Origin: Hyphomonas sp.
GTDB taxonomy: Bacteria > Pseudomonadota > Alphaproteobacteria > Caulobacterales > Hyphomonadaceae
Direction of reading: 5' to 3'
Length of the DNA: 64,000 bases
NCBI RefSeq assembly: GCF_022844445.1
Contig: NZ_JALHLS010000007.1
Location: forward strand, 62,001 to 126,000
Made by a program: the position numbers and the translations under genes. The notes beneath the pieces were generated by a model. That model was not told the origin of the DNA, did not search any database, and was given only the letters and a program-made list of their open reading frames with translations. Positions 7,401 through 21,615 of the stretch are shown here, piece after piece. Position 1 is the stretch's first letter, and every line of letters starts with the position of its first letter.

Positions 7401-8207
7401 CTAGAAGTTGACGCGGCTCGAGACGGCGCCGTCAACGACCAGGTTGGAGCCGGTCGTGTAGCTGGAGCGGGGCGAGGCGAGGAAGACGGCGGCGTCCGCA
7501 ATCTCCTGGGCCGTCGCGCAGCGGCCGGTGGGGTTGCGGGCGTTGGCCGCGGCGAAGAAGTCCGGCGCGTTCTTTTTCACCGTGTCCCAGACGCCGCCTT
7601 CGAAGAAGACCATGCCGGGGGAGACCACGTTCACGCGGATGCGCGCCTTGGCGTACTGGCGGGCGAGGCCCTTGGCCATGTGAATGAGCGCGGCCTTGAT
7701 CGGGCCGTAACTGTCAGCGCGGTCGGCCTGCGCGGCGGAAACCGAGGAGATGATGACGAAAGCCGCATCGCCCGAGGCTTCGGCGCCCTTGGCGAGAAGG
7801 GGCTGGGCGGCCTCGAAGGCATTGACGGCAGCGAGCACGTCGAGCTTGAAGTTCTGCTCCCAGGCGGCGACATCATTGCCCTGCGCCATGGCGCCGGCAT
7901 TGGAGATCAGAAGGTCCAGCCCCCCCAGCTCGCCGGCAGCGGACTTGATCCAGGCTTGCAGGGCAGGGCCGTCTGTAACGTCCACCGAAGCGCCCGTGGC
8001 TTTTACGCCGAGGGCTTTGAGCTCTGCCACGGCCGCCGCGACCTGATCTGCATTGCGCGCGCAGACGCCGACATTCGCGCCCTCTTTTGCGAGCGTGTCG
8101 GCGATGGCGCGGCCGATACCGCGCGTGCCGCCGAGGATGAGGGCGTTCTTGCCCTTGAGCTGGAGATCCATGGATGTCGTTTCCTTCCTGTTTTTGTGAT
8201 GGCCCAT
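7401..8207 (-). CDS. SDR-family oxidoreductase
   Basis: TRGIGRAIA Rossmann motif, NAG motif (SNAGAMAQ), SYGPIKAAL catalytic YxxxK. Confidence 0.92.
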   Translation of the reverse strand: MGHHKNRKETTSMDLQLKGKNALILGGTRGIGRAIADTLAKEGANVGVCARNADQVAAAVAELKALGVKATGASVDVTDGPALQAWIKSAAGELGGLDLLISNAGAMAQGNDVAAWEQNFKLDVLAAVNAFEAAQPLLAKGAEASGDAAFVIISSVSAAQADRADSYGPIKAALIHMAKGLARQYAKARIRVNVVSPGMVFFEGGVWDTVKKNAPDFFAAANARNPTGRCATAQEIADAAVFLASPRSSYTTGSNLVVDGAVSSRVNF

Positions 8208-11016: not shown

Positions 11017-11067
11017 CGTCACTTTTACTAGTGACGAATCGTCGGCGTTTGTGCTAGTTATGCCGAC
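11017..11067. promoter_or_regulatory. Inverted repeats in the putative abiE promoter/operator
   Basis: CGTCACT-TTTACT-AGTGACG (11017-11036) and GTCGGC-N15-GCCGAC (11041-11067), immediately before the ATG at 11071. Confidence 0.5.
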
Positions 11068-11070
11068 ATT

Positions 11071-11718
11071 ATGTCACAAACACCTCACACACTCCGCTCA
11101 TCGAGCAAAAAAGGGGATGCGCTCACGCAAGCGGAGCGCGCACTTGCTCTCCTCGACAAGACACCGCTCCTGCGGGCGCGCGATCTTGTCGACGCCGGAA
11201 TCGCACGCGAAACGCTGCGCCGTCTCGTCCAGAGCGGTGAGCTCGAACAACCCGATCGTGGACTCTATCGCCGCGTCGGCGGTGAAATGGCGGCGGAAGC
11301 CTCGATTGCCGAGGTCTCGCGACGGACACCGCATGCCGTGGTCGCGCTCCTATCGGCGCTTCGCTTCCATGGCCTGACGACCCAGGTGCCCCATGAAGTA
11401 TGGGTCTATATCGGCCGCAAGGCGCGTGTTCCGGCACGTACGCCCGTCAAACTCAGGGTGTTCCGCGTGGACGGTGACGGACTGACGCTCGGGATCGACG
11501 ACCACGTCATCGACGGCGTGCCGGTCAAGATCACCAACACGGCACGGACGATTGTGGACTGTTTCAAACGACGGGACGAAATCGGGCTCGACGTGGCGAT
11601 CGAAGCCCTTCGCGATGCCCGGCGGCAGCGGAAAGTAGACCTGAATGAAGTCTGGCGTATCGCTGAACGCCGCCGTGCACTGACCTACATGCGACCCTAT
11701 CTCGAAGCTCTGGGCTAG
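11071..11718 (+). CDS. abiEi: AbiEi-type antitoxin / transcriptional regulator (type IV TA)
   Basis: 215 aa; winged-helix N-terminus (LLDKTPLLRARDLVDAGIARETLRRLVQSGELEQPDRGLYR); followed by AbiEii-like gene. Confidence 0.85.
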   Translation: MSQTPHTLRSSSKKGDALTQAERALALLDKTPLLRARDLVDAGIARETLRRLVQSGELEQPDRGLYRRVGGEMAAEASIAEVSRRTPHAVVALLSALRFHGLTTQVPHEVWVYIGRKARVPARTPVKLRVFRVDGDGLTLGIDDHVIDGVPVKITNTARTIVDCFKRRDEIGLDVAIEALRDARRQRKVDLNEVWRIAERRRALTYMRPYLEALG

Positions 11719-11732
11719 GGGGAGCCTGAACC

Positions 11733-12647
11733 ATGACCGTCAACATTGCTGCTTCGGTTCGCACGCGATTGACCACCCTCGCCAGGCAACAAGGCGATGC
11801 GGTCGACCGTGTCTTTCTCCGCTACGCGATCGAGCGTCTCCTCTATCGGCTCGCCCAGACCGACTACCGTGATCAATTCGTGCTCAAGGGAGCCATGCTG
11901 TTTTCACTTTGGGCGCCCGTTCCTTATCGCAGCACCGGCGACCTTGATCTGCTCGGTCACGGCGATCCTGCGCCGGAACGCATGGCGGCGATCTTCACCG
12001 CGATCTGCGTCGCCGCCGTCGATGATGACGGCGTCGTCTATGACGCCGCCAGCGTGCGTGCGGAGAGTGTCCGCGACGATGAGGATTATCGCGGTGTTCG
12101 TGTCTCGCTGACGGCTACGCTCGCCGGCGCGCGCCTGGCGATCCAGATTGATATCGGATTTGGCGACGCCGTGACGCCCGGCGCATCTGACGTCGATTAT
12201 CCGTCGCTTCTTGGCTTTCCGTCGCCGTCTCTCCGTGCCTATCCGGCAGAGACTGTTGTTGCGGAAAAGCTCGAAGCGCTTGTCTCGCTCGATATGCGCA
12301 ACAGCCGGATGAAAGACTTCTTCGATCTCTGGGTGATCGCGAAGACATTTGCGTTTGATGGTCCAACGCTCGCGACCGCCGTCGCTGCGACGTTCGAGCG
12401 CCGCGGCACGGCGCTTCCCCAAGGCTCGCCTGTTGCGCTGACCAAGACTTTCTCAAACGACGCAGGAAAGCAGTCTCTGTGGCGAGCGTTCTTGAACCGC
12501 ACCACGATCGCCGTTGCGCCCGAGCCACTCCCTGAACTGGTCGCGTTCATTGCGGAATTCGTCGCGCCGCTCATGGCAACCAAAGCGGCCACCACCATGA
12601 TGGGAATGACGTGGCAGCCGGGTGGACCTTGGGTTTCTGGCGCATAG
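11733..12647 (+). CDS. abiEii: AbiEii/AbiGii-type nucleotidyltransferase toxin
   Basis: 304 aa; QFVLKGAMLFSLWAPVPYRSTGDLDLLG nucleotidyltransferase motif; AETVVAEKLEALVSLDMRNSRMKDFFDL. Confidence 0.88.
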   Translation: MTVNIAASVRTRLTTLARQQGDAVDRVFLRYAIERLLYRLAQTDYRDQFVLKGAMLFSLWAPVPYRSTGDLDLLGHGDPAPERMAAIFTAICVAAVDDDGVVYDAASVRAESVRDDEDYRGVRVSLTATLAGARLAIQIDIGFGDAVTPGASDVDYPSLLGFPSPSLRAYPAETVVAEKLEALVSLDMRNSRMKDFFDLWVIAKTFAFDGPTLATAVAATFERRGTALPQGSPVALTKTFSNDAGKQSLWRAFLNRTTIAVAPEPLPELVAFIAEFVAPLMATKAATTMMGMTWQPGGPWVSGA

Positions 12648-12686
12648 ACGACATCGGACGGGTACTGAGGTTTTTGGGGGTAGGGG

Positions 12687-15600
12687 ATGAGCTGGCAAGA
12701 AGTCCGAGAAAATATTGCTGAGGTCGTACTTCTCGCTCGTGCGGCAAGCGGGTATTTCGACAAGACCTTGAAAAGCATCGTTCGGCAAAAAGTGGACCGT
12801 CACTTCCGGACCAATCGCCCGCTTCGGGAGCATCGGTATCCTGCCATTCGTCGTGCGATGGGTTCTGTTGGTACCCATCCATACGTGTCAATCGGGGCTA
12901 TTGCTGCGTTGTACGCGATTGTGAGTGTGTGGACTTGGTACGCCCCATTGCCTGGTCCGACTGCTCCCGACAAGGTCCGTGACTACTTTCGCGACTTTCA
13001 ATCCATCAATATGGCATTGTTGGGGGTGCAAGCTTCGTTCATCGGCCTTGTCTTTCCGCTTGTCATCGCCTTCGTTGGTTTGCTCAATCAAGGCCGAGCG
13101 TCTTTTGCGACGCGTCTCACCATATACTTCGACGAAAGCGGCGCCCGCCTTGTCGGCATTAGTTCGCTGCTTCTTTGCATAGTCATCGCATTGCAGCTCC
13201 CACTCGCGGGCATAATTCCTGTGAGAGTGGTTGCCGCAGGCGCAATCCTCAATCTGATCTGGCTCGCTCTGAATATTGCAGTGTTAGGATTCTTCCTTTT
13301 TCGAACTGTCGCATTTGTCCAACCGGCACAGCGCGATCCGATTACCTGGTCTTATGTTGCCAACGTTGCGTGGCGCTACGAACTCCACGCACAACTGATC
13401 GCAAACAATTGGGGAAACGCAGGCACCTACGGCCATCTTCCTGCCGGCGACGAAAATGGGCGGGCCAGCATCTATTGCTCACCGCTTTGGGACTCAGACC
13501 CCGTGCTGGCGAGCCGAGACCTGCGACGCGATCACGTCCTCGACGATGTGCGCTTCGGCGTCATCCGGCCTGTCGCTTTCGCCTGGCTCAAGGCAGCCGA
13601 ACGCCCATCAAATGCGAGCGACGTCAGTCTAGCGTTTCCTGTATCCCCGGGCGAGAGCTACACGGATGATACTGTACTCGCTAGATCGCAAGAACCACTT
13701 GGCTGGGGTGGACGCACGGCGATTCGCCTCGGATTCCTCTTTCGGAAAAAGTCGCGCTTCCCGACCGAGAACGCAGATACGTCTACTGTCTTGAAGGAGA
13801 TGGTCACTGAACTCCTCACGTTGGCGGATCTTCGGAAAGTTGAAGAGTTTGGTTCTCAGCTCAGGACAGTCAAAGAATTCCATGCCTTCTTGTACCTGAT
13901 CGCTCAGGCGACAGATCACGACTTCAACTTTTCCGAACTCGAATCCACGTGGACAAAAAGCGTCGGACAGCAATGGGCGTCGCAGTACCGCGACCTACAA
14001 AGGCGGGTCACCGAGCGCCTCGGCGATGAACCTGAACTTTTCGCGCGTTGTTGCTATCTGCCTGCGGATATCTATGCGCAATGCCGTGATACCGTTTCTC
14101 CCACCGCTCTTGCGCCACTCCTCGATGTGTCCGCCAACCTGTTCCATCACTTGATGGTGTGGGCGGTAGCCGCGCACAGGGATGAAGCAGGGCAGACGCC
14201 AGGACCGGGGGAGTCATTTATGCTTACTCGTCTTGGCACCAACCACGCGGGCGCGTGGCGCAGCCTCGTAGCGGGTCGGGAGCGACTACTCGATGTGATC
14301 CTACGGTGGCCAAAAGGCGAAACACCGACCTGGACTGAACTCCGCCGGCATAATGTCAATTCAATACGGCATCTTCAGCTCACGGCCGAAATGGTGGGTC
14401 GAAGCGCCTGGAACGGTGATAGAATTGCCGTTCTATGGTCTGTCGATCTCCTCATCGGCTGGATAGAGCGTGCAGAACGCGATTGGCCAGATCAAGGCCA
14501 CACGTGGTGGGCGCTACGACCCCAAGCGCTTACACTCGACTTGTTCTCCGCCGAATGGCCTGAAATTGAAGCATTGCCGATTACAACCACCGATGCGCGC
14601 CCGACTCCGAGAGATGTCTACGCTGGCATCTTCCACAATGCCTGGCGTGACTACATCATCGCGCTTGCGACGGTGTGCATACATTGGTGCCGTGAGTTTG
14701 GTGTCAGTGGTACTGCGGCGCTCGCGGCTCGCATGCTTCTATCAGGTCGCCGGCATGACCAAGGGGCCTCAAGCGTCAGAGAGGCAGAGCCCCCAGACAC
14801 AAGCAGCATTCTGATCGCGTTGCTCCGTATTGTCGGTGCAGGCTGGCGGTTCGACAAATCATATGCCAGCCGTTTTGATCATCTCGCCGAGCGACTTGGC
14901 GAGTTGCGCCAAGAGCCATGGGTTTCCATGCGAATCTATTCGTCGAGCGGCGGACTTGGCTTCTCAGCTCTGTACACTGAGCATGCTCTTGCAATGATGG
15001 CCGCTACCGACCCAGCCAACCAGCTGGTCGTCGGTGATGGTTTGCGACGGATGCTCGTTGATGGCGACGACGTCCCGAAGCGGCGGCGGGAGGAATATCT
15101 CCGTGCTCTGCTAACGGCATTAGCTGATATTGATCGCGTTGAATGGGAGCCGATCCTTGGTGCGCTGCTAGCCGATCCACAAAGTACCGGATTCGAAACG
15201 CGGCTTGCTGCGGTTCGCTCGTTGCTGGAGCAATCGATTCAGGTCCTAGATTCACACCGCCTACAGGCAATCCGGGATGCCGAGATCGATCCCGAGCGTC
15301 TCCTTGAGGTCGCATCGGCAGCCGGGAAACTGGCATTCAGCGCAGCAACAGGCGCATTCCCAATCCATGTCTTTTCGGCAGTCGAGACGGTGCAAGAGGA
15401 ACTGACGGAGTTCACGCTACGCTCACTCAATCAGGAAAAGGGTGCATTCTCCAAACCTCAGATGGCGCAACCCGTCTCGAATGAGGAAAGCTGGTGGAGC
15501 GCGACGATGCGCGATCAGGTGGCGAGCATCATCTGGCGGGACGTGCTGCAGGCCACCCCGTTCGAAACCCTGATAGGCACATCACCCGAAGAGTTTTGGT

Positions 15601-16046
15601 CTGTCGTCAAAAATGGTGCAAACAATATCCGTGGTGCAGGCGGTGAGCCGATCCTTGTTATCTCGAGTAGCATGGAGCCGCGGTGGCTGCATGAATGGCG
15701 TTGGGCTGAGTTCCGAGAAGGCTATAAACGACCCGAAGACCTCACGGTGCATCGCGAAAACAATGAGGAACCAGGCTACGAATTCTCGCTGAACGACATT
15801 CGCGTGTATCGAGCCGCTTGCTACCGTGGAGAATGCTATCTTCTATCGCGTACAATGCTTGAGAAAGTGCGGTTCCGCGATTTCGGTGATGGTTCGCAGG
15901 TGAAGGTTGATTTCGAGAGCGATGCATCTGATCCGTGGCGCGGTTCGCTCACGGTCAAATACCAACGCGCCGTGCAAATCGGTCGAACGCAGTCCTATAG
16001 AATCCGTCACGCCCAACTGACGGAAGGACCCGAAGAAGAAGTGTAG
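12687..16046 (+). CDS. Uncharacterised 1119-aa protein with N-terminal transmembrane region and large soluble C-terminal part
   Basis: Long ORF on the same strand, 39 bp after abiEii; four hydrophobic segments between about aa 65 and 215, then ~900 aa without clear TM. Confidence 0.8.
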   Translation: MSWQEVRENIAEVVLLARAASGYFDKTLKSIVRQKVDRHFRTNRPLREHRYPAIRRAMGSVGTHPYVSIGAIAALYAIVSVWTWYAPLPGPTAPDKVRDYFRDFQSINMALLGVQASFIGLVFPLVIAFVGLLNQGRASFATRLTIYFDESGARLVGISSLLLCIVIALQLPLAGIIPVRVVAAGAILNLIWLALNIAVLGFFLFRTVAFVQPAQRDPITWSYVANVAWRYELHAQLIANNWGNAGTYGHLPAGDENGRASIYCSPLWDSDPVLASRDLRRDHVLDDVRFGVIRPVAFAWLKAAERPSNASDVSLAFPVSPGESYTDDTVLARSQEPLGWGGRTAIRLGFLFRKKSRFPTENADTSTVLKEMVTELLTLADLRKVEEFGSQLRTVKEFHAFLYLIAQATDHDFNFSELESTWTKSVGQQWASQYRDLQRRVTERLGDEPELFARCCYLPADIYAQCRDTVSPTALAPLLDVSANLFHHLMVWAVAAHRDEAGQTPGPGESFMLTRLGTNHAGAWRSLVAGRERLLDVILRWPKGETPTWTELRRHNVNSIRHLQLTAEMVGRSAWNGDRIAVLWSVDLLIGWIERAERDWPDQGHTWWALRPQALTLDLFSAEWPEIEALPITTTDARPTPRDVYAGIFHNAWRDYIIALATVCIHWCREFGVSGTAALAARMLLSGRRHDQGASSVREAEPPDTSSILIALLRIVGAGWRFDKSYASRFDHLAERLGELRQEPWVSMRIYSSSGGLGFSALYTEHALAMMAATDPANQLVVGDGLRRMLVDGDDVPKRRREEYLRALLTALADIDRVEWEPILGALLADPQSTGFETRLAAVRSLLEQSIQVLDSHRLQAIRDAEIDPERLLEVASAAGKLAFSAATGAFPIHVFSAVETVQEELTEFTLRSLNQEKGAFSKPQMAQPVSNEESWWSATMRDQVASIIWRDVLQATPFETLIGTSPEEFWSVVKNGANNIRGAGGEPILVISSSMEPRWLHEWRWAEFREGYKRPEDLTVHRENNEEPGYEFSLNDIRVYRAACYRGECYLLSRTMLEKVRFRDFGDGSQVKVDFESDASDPWRGSLTVKYQRAVQIGRTQSYRIRHAQLTEGPEEEV

Positions 16047-19960: not shown

Positions 19961-20884
19961 TCACCCATTGAAGGGGCCCCACTCCTTTATGTGACCGCGC
20001 AGCATGTTGCAGGCCGGACCGATTAGGGCGGCCGCATCCTTTCCAGCTTCGTAAACATAAGGGATGGTCGTTACACCGGCGAGGTCGCTCGGAAGCTTTA
20101 CCTTCTCCTCACGTGGTTCCATCAGAATCGCCCGCTTCCTGCCCAGCCGGCCCATAAACAGGCCAAGTTCAAACACCACGTTGTCGCGAGGTGTTGGCCA
20201 ATCTTTGCCCCGGAATAGCGTCATATCATCGCTGTGTGCGACCGCGATGGCGAAGTCGGAATCGTCGACAGCTCCCTCCAGCGACTCCAAGGCGTAGCTC
20301 GCGACCTTGAACACCCCGTCAGTCCAGAGCGTCACCACAAAGCCGTCATGCGACAGTGCATTCTGAATTAGCCGAGCCACGTCAAGCGCCTCGGCGGACG
20401 AGATTATGAAGACCTTAATCTTTTCGCGATGCGCGCCTATCAGCTTATTGCGTTCGAGCAGGCGGCGAGCCAACGCCTTGGCGATCACGCGGTATATGTC
20501 CGAGTGCCGCGTTGCGAGTTCGGTGACGTGCGCGTAGGCAATCTTGGCAACTAATGCGGGTTCGGCCGCAATTACATCCGCAGAACGCCGTTGCGCAGGT
20601 TCTATCAAGGCCATTTCACCAACGTGATCGCCGCGGCCCCTTATAGCGACTTCGCGGCCATTCACCACGATCTTGAAGGTGCCAGCGATAATCAGGAAGA
20701 GGTCGTTGTCGTCGCCTCCTTGGGCGACAATCGCCTCGCCTTCTGAAACCTCAATCACATCGGCGCACTCCGCGAGTTCTATGGCGAGGTCACGGCTGCC
20801 GCAGACAATTGCCTGCTGGAGCATTGCATCGATGAGGTTCAATTTTCCTGCGTCGCCGCGGAAACGATCTACAAGTACACTCAT
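19961..20884 (-). CDS. pycTIR: Pycsar-type effector: cyclic-nucleotide-binding domain + TIR-like domain
   Basis: Start ATG 20884 (MSVLVDRFRGD...). cNMP-binding cassette GRGDHVGEMALIEPAQRRSADV; C-terminal KVFIISSAEALDVARLIQNAL...DNVVFELGLFMGRLGRKRAILMEPR TIR-like. ATGA overlap with cyclase gene. Confidence 0.88.
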   Translation of the reverse strand: MSVLVDRFRGDAGKLNLIDAMLQQAIVCGSRDLAIELAECADVIEVSEGEAIVAQGGDDNDLFLIIAGTFKIVVNGREVAIRGRGDHVGEMALIEPAQRRSADVIAAEPALVAKIAYAHVTELATRHSDIYRVIAKALARRLLERNKLIGAHREKIKVFIISSAEALDVARLIQNALSHDGFVVTLWTDGVFKVASYALESLEGAVDDSDFAIAVAHSDDMTLFRGKDWPTPRDNVVFELGLFMGRLGRKRAILMEPREEKVKLPSDLAGVTTIPYVYEAGKDAAALIGPACNMLRGHIKEWGPFNG

Positions 20885-21615
20885 GTGAACGATCTCCAAT
20901 ACGTTGAAGAATAGATTTCGTCCTCGTTGTGCTCGCTCCATTTCCACTTGCGCCAGATATCTTCACCCTGTGCCCCCTTTTTTTGCGGAGCATCCAGGTA
21001 ATCATACACGCGCTTTGTGATCCATGTCGGATTGTCGGCGCTTAGCGCGGTCAGCTTGGCGGCCAAATTGGCGGCATTACCGATCCACACAAGGTCATTG
21101 TCACCGCGAACACCCGTCCTTGCAGCCCGGATGGTCGATGTGTCGATCCCGATGACATGACGTATATTGAAGTCGGTGGTCCAGCGCTTATTCAACTCCG
21201 TCTGCACAACGTTCTTCACGGCGTAGTTGATCTCAAGGGCACATGACGCCGCTTCGTTTCGTTGCTGCTTAGAGATGAAGATGCCCATTACGCGATCGCC
21301 ATCGTAGGAGATGATTGCCCCCCCATGTTTGCGGATTAGACGCGACGCCGCATAGAGGAACGTCTTGTAGACTTCTCCGGCGAATTCCCACTTCTTTCCT
21401 CCAACAAGGTCGGTCGATCCGTCGAGATCCGCGTATAGGATTGTCGCCGTTTCGAAACGGACCGCGTCGTTCGTCATCTTGAGATCGGTGGCGGCAGGCA
21501 CGACCAATCCGTCACGGACCGTCCACTGTTTGCCGAAAGTAGCGGCCGCGTTCATTTTGATATCGTCTGCGACGCTCATAAGGATGACGTTGCCGCAATC
21601 AGTAGTTGGGATCAA
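20881..21615 (-). CDS. pycC: Class III nucleotidyl cyclase, Pycsar-type (predicted cCMP/cUMP synthase)
   Basis: 244 aa; ATILYADLDGSTDLV and GGAIISYDGDRVMGIF metal-binding segments; WIGNAANLAAKLTALS; overlaps effector by 4 bp. Start may be 21579. Confidence 0.87.
   Translation of the reverse strand: MIPTTDCGNVILMSVADDIKMNAAATFGKQWTVRDGLVVPAATDLKMTNDAVRFETATILYADLDGSTDLVGGKKWEFAGEVYKTFLYAASRLIRKHGGAIISYDGDRVMGIFISKQQRNEAASCALEINYAVKNVVQTELNKRWTTDFNIRHVIGIDTSTIRAARTGVRGDNDLVWIGNAANLAAKLTALSADNPTWITKRVYDYLDAPQKKGAQGEDIWRKWKWSEHNEDEIYSSTYWRSFT

Follow-up and report, generated by a model that had tools for sequence, protein, structure and literature searches.

We find that the 1119-aa protein encoded directly behind an AbiE toxin–antitoxin pair in Hyphomonas sp. 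belongs to a family of membrane proteins that, judged by the libraries searched, is undescribed, and that this protein is very probably independent of AbiE. The locus in the window, by which we mean the whole stretch of 64,000 nucleotides that was analysed, is best explained as two independent modules, the AbiE pair and the 1119-aa protein, that adjoin in a defence island. We tentatively put forward the second module as a candidate stand-alone, mobile anti-phage protein with a membrane anchor, a helical region and a capsid-like domain that senses phage capsid protein, an assignment that we hold to be plausible rather than probable.

The first module is, by its predicted activity, an ordinary type IV toxin–antitoxin pair of standard composition. 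The genes abiEi (11071–11718, + strand, 215 aa) and abiEii (11733–12647, + strand, 304 aa) were identified by ORF calling and by matches to both Pfam and PADLOC. AbiEi is assigned to the type IV antitoxins/repressors that combine a wHTH with a C-terminal domain (Pfam AbiEi_4, E = 1.3e-11; PADLOC AbiEi, E = 1.4e-83), and AbiEii, which contains a DxD motif (DLDL), to the nucleotidyltransferase toxins (PF08843, E = 3.4e-49; PADLOC AbiEii, E = 1.5e-128). As in other AbiE systems, abiEii adjoins abiEi on the same strand, here across a gap of 14 bp. Two inverted repeats without assigned strand precede abiEi, GTCAC-N8-GTGAC (11018–11035) and, just 5' of the gene, GTCGGC-N15-GCCGAC (11041–11067). In genome G185, from another species of the genus, whose AbiE locus is 90% identical, the arms of both are unchanged and the loops divergent. 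In S. agalactiae, AbiEi binds inverted repeats within its own promoter (PMC3985639), and by analogy both repeats are candidate AbiEi operators.

The third gene (12687–16046, + strand) follows abiEii after 39 bp (12648–12686), which include the purine-rich stretch GGGGGTAGGGG before the ATG. ORF calls place all three genes where an earlier note on this DNA had put them, and on the same strand. The 1119-aa ORF represents a real gene, because full-length homologues occur on other replicons. Scans with simple consensus motifs for promoters and terminators returned nothing informative. The earlier note had suggested that the three genes form an extended AbiE-type system, with the 1119-aa protein as a third component working with AbiEi and AbiEii. 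The short gap and the common strand are consistent with this idea, and the G185 locus probably derives from a source with the same arrangement, given that the first 22 codons of the gene are kept there. Gene order in other genomes argues otherwise. AbiEii-like genes occur in 12 of 42 genomes of the genus and in 29 of 249 genomes of the order; within the genus, the 1119-aa gene is found only in the genome of the window. No similarity to the 1119-aa protein was detected downstream of AbiEii in 26 of the 27 AbiEii loci sampled from the genus and the order that extend at least 700 bp downstream, and the 27th, G185, alone carries a trace, so the order abiEi–abiEii–1119 is not conserved. Searches of the homologue loci examined with both Abi proteins (tblastn) revealed no AbiE outside the window except for fragments at E 0.2 or worse, and most homologues stand apart from any same-strand upstream gene. 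On this gene-order evidence we rejected the three-gene system; this reading is largely refuted, and we consider it highly unlikely.

The G185 locus is instructive in this respect. Its AbiEii is 90% identical to that of the window, and its 1119-aa gene is reduced to the start codon and the first 22 codons. AbiE therefore persists without the 1119-aa gene. Since the stub segment LLARAASG aligns with LLAKGAAG at the N-terminus of the homologue from Caulobacteraceae bacterium UBA3198, G185 most likely once had the gene, lost it and kept AbiE; insertion of the gene into the window instead of loss from G185 is the less likely course of events. The AbiE block of G185 (L036, 9970–11767) is 90% identical to that of the window as opposed to 82% for the neighbouring SDR gene, which hints that the block was acquired by horizontal transfer. 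This SDR gene is found no more than a few kb away from AbiE in three species of the genus (window, 7401–8207; L036, 14549–15319; L039, 2045–2828), which may mark an insertion hotspot for defence genes. In genome G041 (L038, 7858–8790), a gene for a 310-aa protein follows abiEii after 121 bp on the same strand; third genes after abiEii therefore differ between loci. The broader lesson is that defence genes neighbouring on one strand need not form one system.

Turning to the 1119-aa protein itself, no family match was obtained in any of five libraries (Pfam, NCBIfam, PADLOC, PHROGs and PDB sequences), and the remark in the earlier note that the large domain could not be assigned was fair. Among the PADLOC defence models, the window protein was unmatched, and weak matches within the family are confined to single members. 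Full-length members are about 1040–1170 aa long and share 15–34% identity with the window protein, 31–34% for two Caulobacteraceae members and about 15–25% for the others. Homologues occur in UBA3198 and in Brevundimonas aurantiaca, the latter apparently the same locus as G106, and further ones in Ciceribacter, Paracoccus, Megaera, enterobacterial plasmids and other proteobacterial genomes. The family is present in 2 of 398 genomes sampled from the order, 4 of 385 from the class and 3 of 399 from the phylum, each count including the genome of the window, whereas among 5426 complete E. coli genomes 222 carry the E. coli plasmid form (at least 80% of it), on IncF plasmids. The distribution is thus scattered, rare and patchy in genome samples, yet common on some plasmids. 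Viral contigs and phage genomes contained no homologue of the queries used, and a literature search with family accessions found no mention. The E. coli plasmid homologue has the accession WP_001553851.1, and the E. coli plasmid members are annotated as hypothetical proteins. The Pantoea plasmid homologue (L005, 4135–7254) is annotated as "MFS transporter", a label that its length and family similarity speak against. On some IncF plasmids (L077, 4001–7119; L078, 4001–7118) annotation divides the region of the family gene into three hypothetical proteins in a row, which suggests decayed copies.

The earlier note had predicted about four N-terminal transmembrane segments, and hydropathy bears this out with three clear segments for the window protein and, for most homologues, four, the first of which aligns with window residues of about 66–86. 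This four-segment region (residues about 66–207; 12882–13307, + strand) contains conserved positions in an alignment of 15 diverse members (Q115, G120, P124, W192, N196 and F203). The positively charged N-terminus suggests an N-in, C-in topology, and because of this charge and the four segments the remaining part of about 900 residues is probably cytoplasmic. Residues of about 360–925 (13764–15461, + strand) are predicted with low confidence to be helical, reaching a pLDDT of 50–72 only in parts of residues of about 370–670; H562, N651, D655, R714, R749 and Y751 are conserved here in the same 15-member alignment. An AF2 model of the full-length protein was set aside as unusable (pLDDT 40), with helical repeats and designs as its only structural matches.

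Some members are encoded in pieces. In Paracoccus (L004) and G772 (L020) two genes, overlapping by 8 and 4 bp, respectively, encode the transmembrane part (303 and 370 aa) and the remainder (764 and 757 aa), and the G758 homologue is likewise in two pieces. The membrane and soluble parts therefore seem to be distinct units of a single machine. The L021 homologue does not contain the C-terminal part. An N-terminal-only copy in L007 was ruled out as a different architecture, as it is a truncated copy beside an IS66 element.

The C-terminal domain (residues 926–1119; 15462–16043, + strand) is predicted to be HK97-capsid-like from an AF2 model, a Foldseek search and a sub-threshold Pfam match. The model of these 194 residues, computed from the window protein and two homologues (pLDDT 64, pTM 0.59), consists of a long helix followed by mixed helices and strands. 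In a Foldseek search of the PDB, ranks 1–19 are all HK97-fold shells, namely encapsulins and the capsid proteins of Kp7, Douge, A4, A-1(L), LME-1, HRP29, S6, phi29 and Patience, followed at rank 20 by the A-domain encapsulin 2pk8. The E-values range from 0.03 to 0.5, none falling below 0.001, and the TM-scores are about 0.3–0.4, all less than 0.5. A search of predicted viral proteins with the same model gave three matches with E < 0.001, of which two are named structural or capsid protein and the third is nameless; of the first 36 matches, those with a name are mostly capsid or structural proteins. The strand pattern, together with a weaker SU10 match, had raised the suspicion of a capsid before the model search, so that these leads are not wholly independent, even though the structure search itself was unbiased. 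The modelled piece would be preceded by a capsid N-arm and E-loop, neither of which was identified.

Sequence comparison does not add to this picture. The C-terminal domain of the Pantoea homologue matches Pfam SU10_MCP below threshold (E = 0.008, cut-off not reached), and with the SU10 profile this homologue alone (7.6 bits) exceeds the shuffled controls (at most 3.3). By hhalign against SU10-type and HK97/GTA capsid profiles the domain scores no better than column-shuffled decoys, and homology to HK97 proteins gained no support from SU10-type, HK97/GTA or encapsulin sequences, the encapsulin set being flawed in that one of its two ORFs was on the wrong strand. HK97-fold families often have no detectable sequence similarity to each other, and for this reason the failed profile comparisons count only weakly against the fold. 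Structure search of residues 926–1119 leads to HK97-fold shells, without confirmation from sequence profiles. We regard an HK97-like fold of this segment as rather likely from the model. Swapping of the C-terminal domain among plasmid members, considered in view of tblastn matches that end at residue of about 757, was rejected because a C-terminal profile finds the domain in members outside its build (E 1e-14 to 1e-17); the Ec6622/K. grimontii branch is marginal with this profile (E 0.04–0.07).

The genomic surroundings of the homologues bear on their function regardless of fold. Usually these are single genes on plasmids, in a prophage-like region or in an integrase-linked island. The UBA3198 homologue lies directly downstream of a tyrosine integrase gene, with a TIR protein (PADLOC PDC-S66) about 2 kb further on. 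The Paracoccus homologue, on a plasmid, is followed by type I restriction genes and a gene with an FRG domain, and a PDC-S36 gene lies upstream. The Megaera homologue, also plasmid-borne, has an NB-ARC/TPR gene and a gene annotated as abortive-infection in its vicinity. The G1083 homologue adjoins DUF1376/DUF6475 genes of prophage type, and HEC-03B is strongly matched within the same 20 kb. In Ciceribacter, a gene for a 1335-aa protein with an LmuA-like N-terminus follows after 143 bp; this protein (L003, 8648–12655) also shows weak TPR matches and is possibly an unusual Lamassu-like protein. In the window, a Pycsar system is encoded 4 kb downstream of the 1119-aa gene (19961–21615, − strand) by two overlapping genes, recorded here as context: PycTIR, an effector with cyclic-nucleotide-binding and TIR parts (19961–20947, − strand; PADLOC E = 5.4e-117), and the cyclase PycC (20881–21615, − strand; PADLOC E = 1.6e-99).

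Some plasmid members share a further setting. On plasmids of E. coli and E. fergusonii (L074 and L076), the family gene is immediately upstream of ccdA-ccdB-integrase, and in L009, an IncF plasmid, a few small genes lie between the family gene and ccdAB-integrase. On plasmid F, the position beside ccdAB-integrase holds pifC and a gene for a P-loop NTPase, which we take to be pifA. Being common on IncF plasmids beside replication, ccdAB and integrase genes, the protein could instead serve mobile-element maintenance, surface exclusion or another housekeeping membrane function unrelated to phage. The chromosomal homologues near defence genes and the rare, patchy distribution make this improbable. 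The frequent proximity of homologues to defence genes is suggestive of defence clustering, and their locations are not consistently away from such genes, the finding by which the earlier note would have given up its proposal of an uncharacterised membrane-anchored defence protein. This proposal is strengthened by mobile, defence-rich regions and by the pif-like slot of some IncF plasmids, and the family probably has a defence role.

How might such a protein work? About 200 N-terminal residues with four transmembrane segments would form an inner-membrane anchor, and the other 900 or so residues would lie in the cytoplasm, first a helical region and then the C-terminal HK97-capsid-like domain. 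This domain would encounter newly synthesised phage major capsid protein by way of capsid-type contacts, the helical region would carry the signal to the membrane part, and the membrane part would stop the infected cell or block head assembly. Phage capsid proteins are recurrent triggers of bacterial immunity (PMC9712102; PMC10884400), and we infer a capsid-sensing, membrane-acting abortive-infection protein as the most economical proposal. The closest rival is a direct poison of head assembly, in which the capsid-like domain would join phage capsid protein in assembly and jam heads or tether them to the membrane with no sensor–effector step. The AF2 model, the Foldseek matches and the viral models fit this rival equally; it leaves the large conserved helical region unexplained and seems to us quite improbable. 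Alternatively, a stand-alone membrane-anchored anti-phage protein might carry a C-terminal domain that is not capsid-derived and sense another trigger. The genomic context is independent of the fold and the profile comparisons lend HK97 no support, as this alternative would have it, but the first 19 PDB matches are all HK97 shells and the named viral matches are mostly capsid or structural proteins, and we judge it somewhat unlikely. The capsid-sensing proposal in its most specific form, in which the family comprises single-gene immune proteins whose membrane-anchored helical scaffold bears a capsid-fold domain of its own, and a domesticated capsid acts as sensor by capsid–capsid contact, is speculative, possible rather than expected.

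About 4% of complete E. coli genomes carry the family, which is absent from the defence library used, on IncF plasmids, where it sometimes occupies the place of the pif genes of F. If the C-terminal domain is a piece of HK97 fold, a capsid-derived part would reside inside a membrane-anchored cellular protein and would offer bacteria a direct route to sense phage heads.

Comparison with known systems sets the window protein apart from each of them. With AbiE, the window shares the order abiEi–abiEii, both protein families and the inverted repeats before abiEi; motif I of AbiEii is described as G-[G/S] (PMC3985639) and reads G-A in the window, and the 1119-aa gene is no part of known AbiE. PifA of plasmid F is encoded, like the family gene of some IncF plasmids, in the slot beside ccdAB-integrase. 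It differs by annotation and family scans: the F gene is annotated with a P-loop NTPase fold and has the repressor gene pifC beside it, whereas the window protein has no NTPase match in family-library scans and no pifC-annotated neighbour of a family gene occurs among the annotated plasmid loci. For PifA, sensing of T7 proteins and membrane depolarisation have been proposed (PMC8594841), and T7 escape from PifA maps partly to the capsid gene (PMC9712102; PMC8594841). The A-domain (family 4) encapsulins (2PK8), cellular proteins with part of an HK97 fold (PMC8346489), resemble what is predicted for the C-terminal domain of the window protein, but are soluble proteins of about 100 aa beside metabolic enzymes, whereas the latter domain is fused to a membrane protein. 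CapRel (SJ46) follows the same proposed logic, in which the major capsid protein is met by a sensor region at the C-terminus (PMC9712102). In contrast to this tRNA-modifying toxin with its pseudo-zinc-finger sensor, the window protein is membrane-bound and its proposed sensor would itself be capsid-like.
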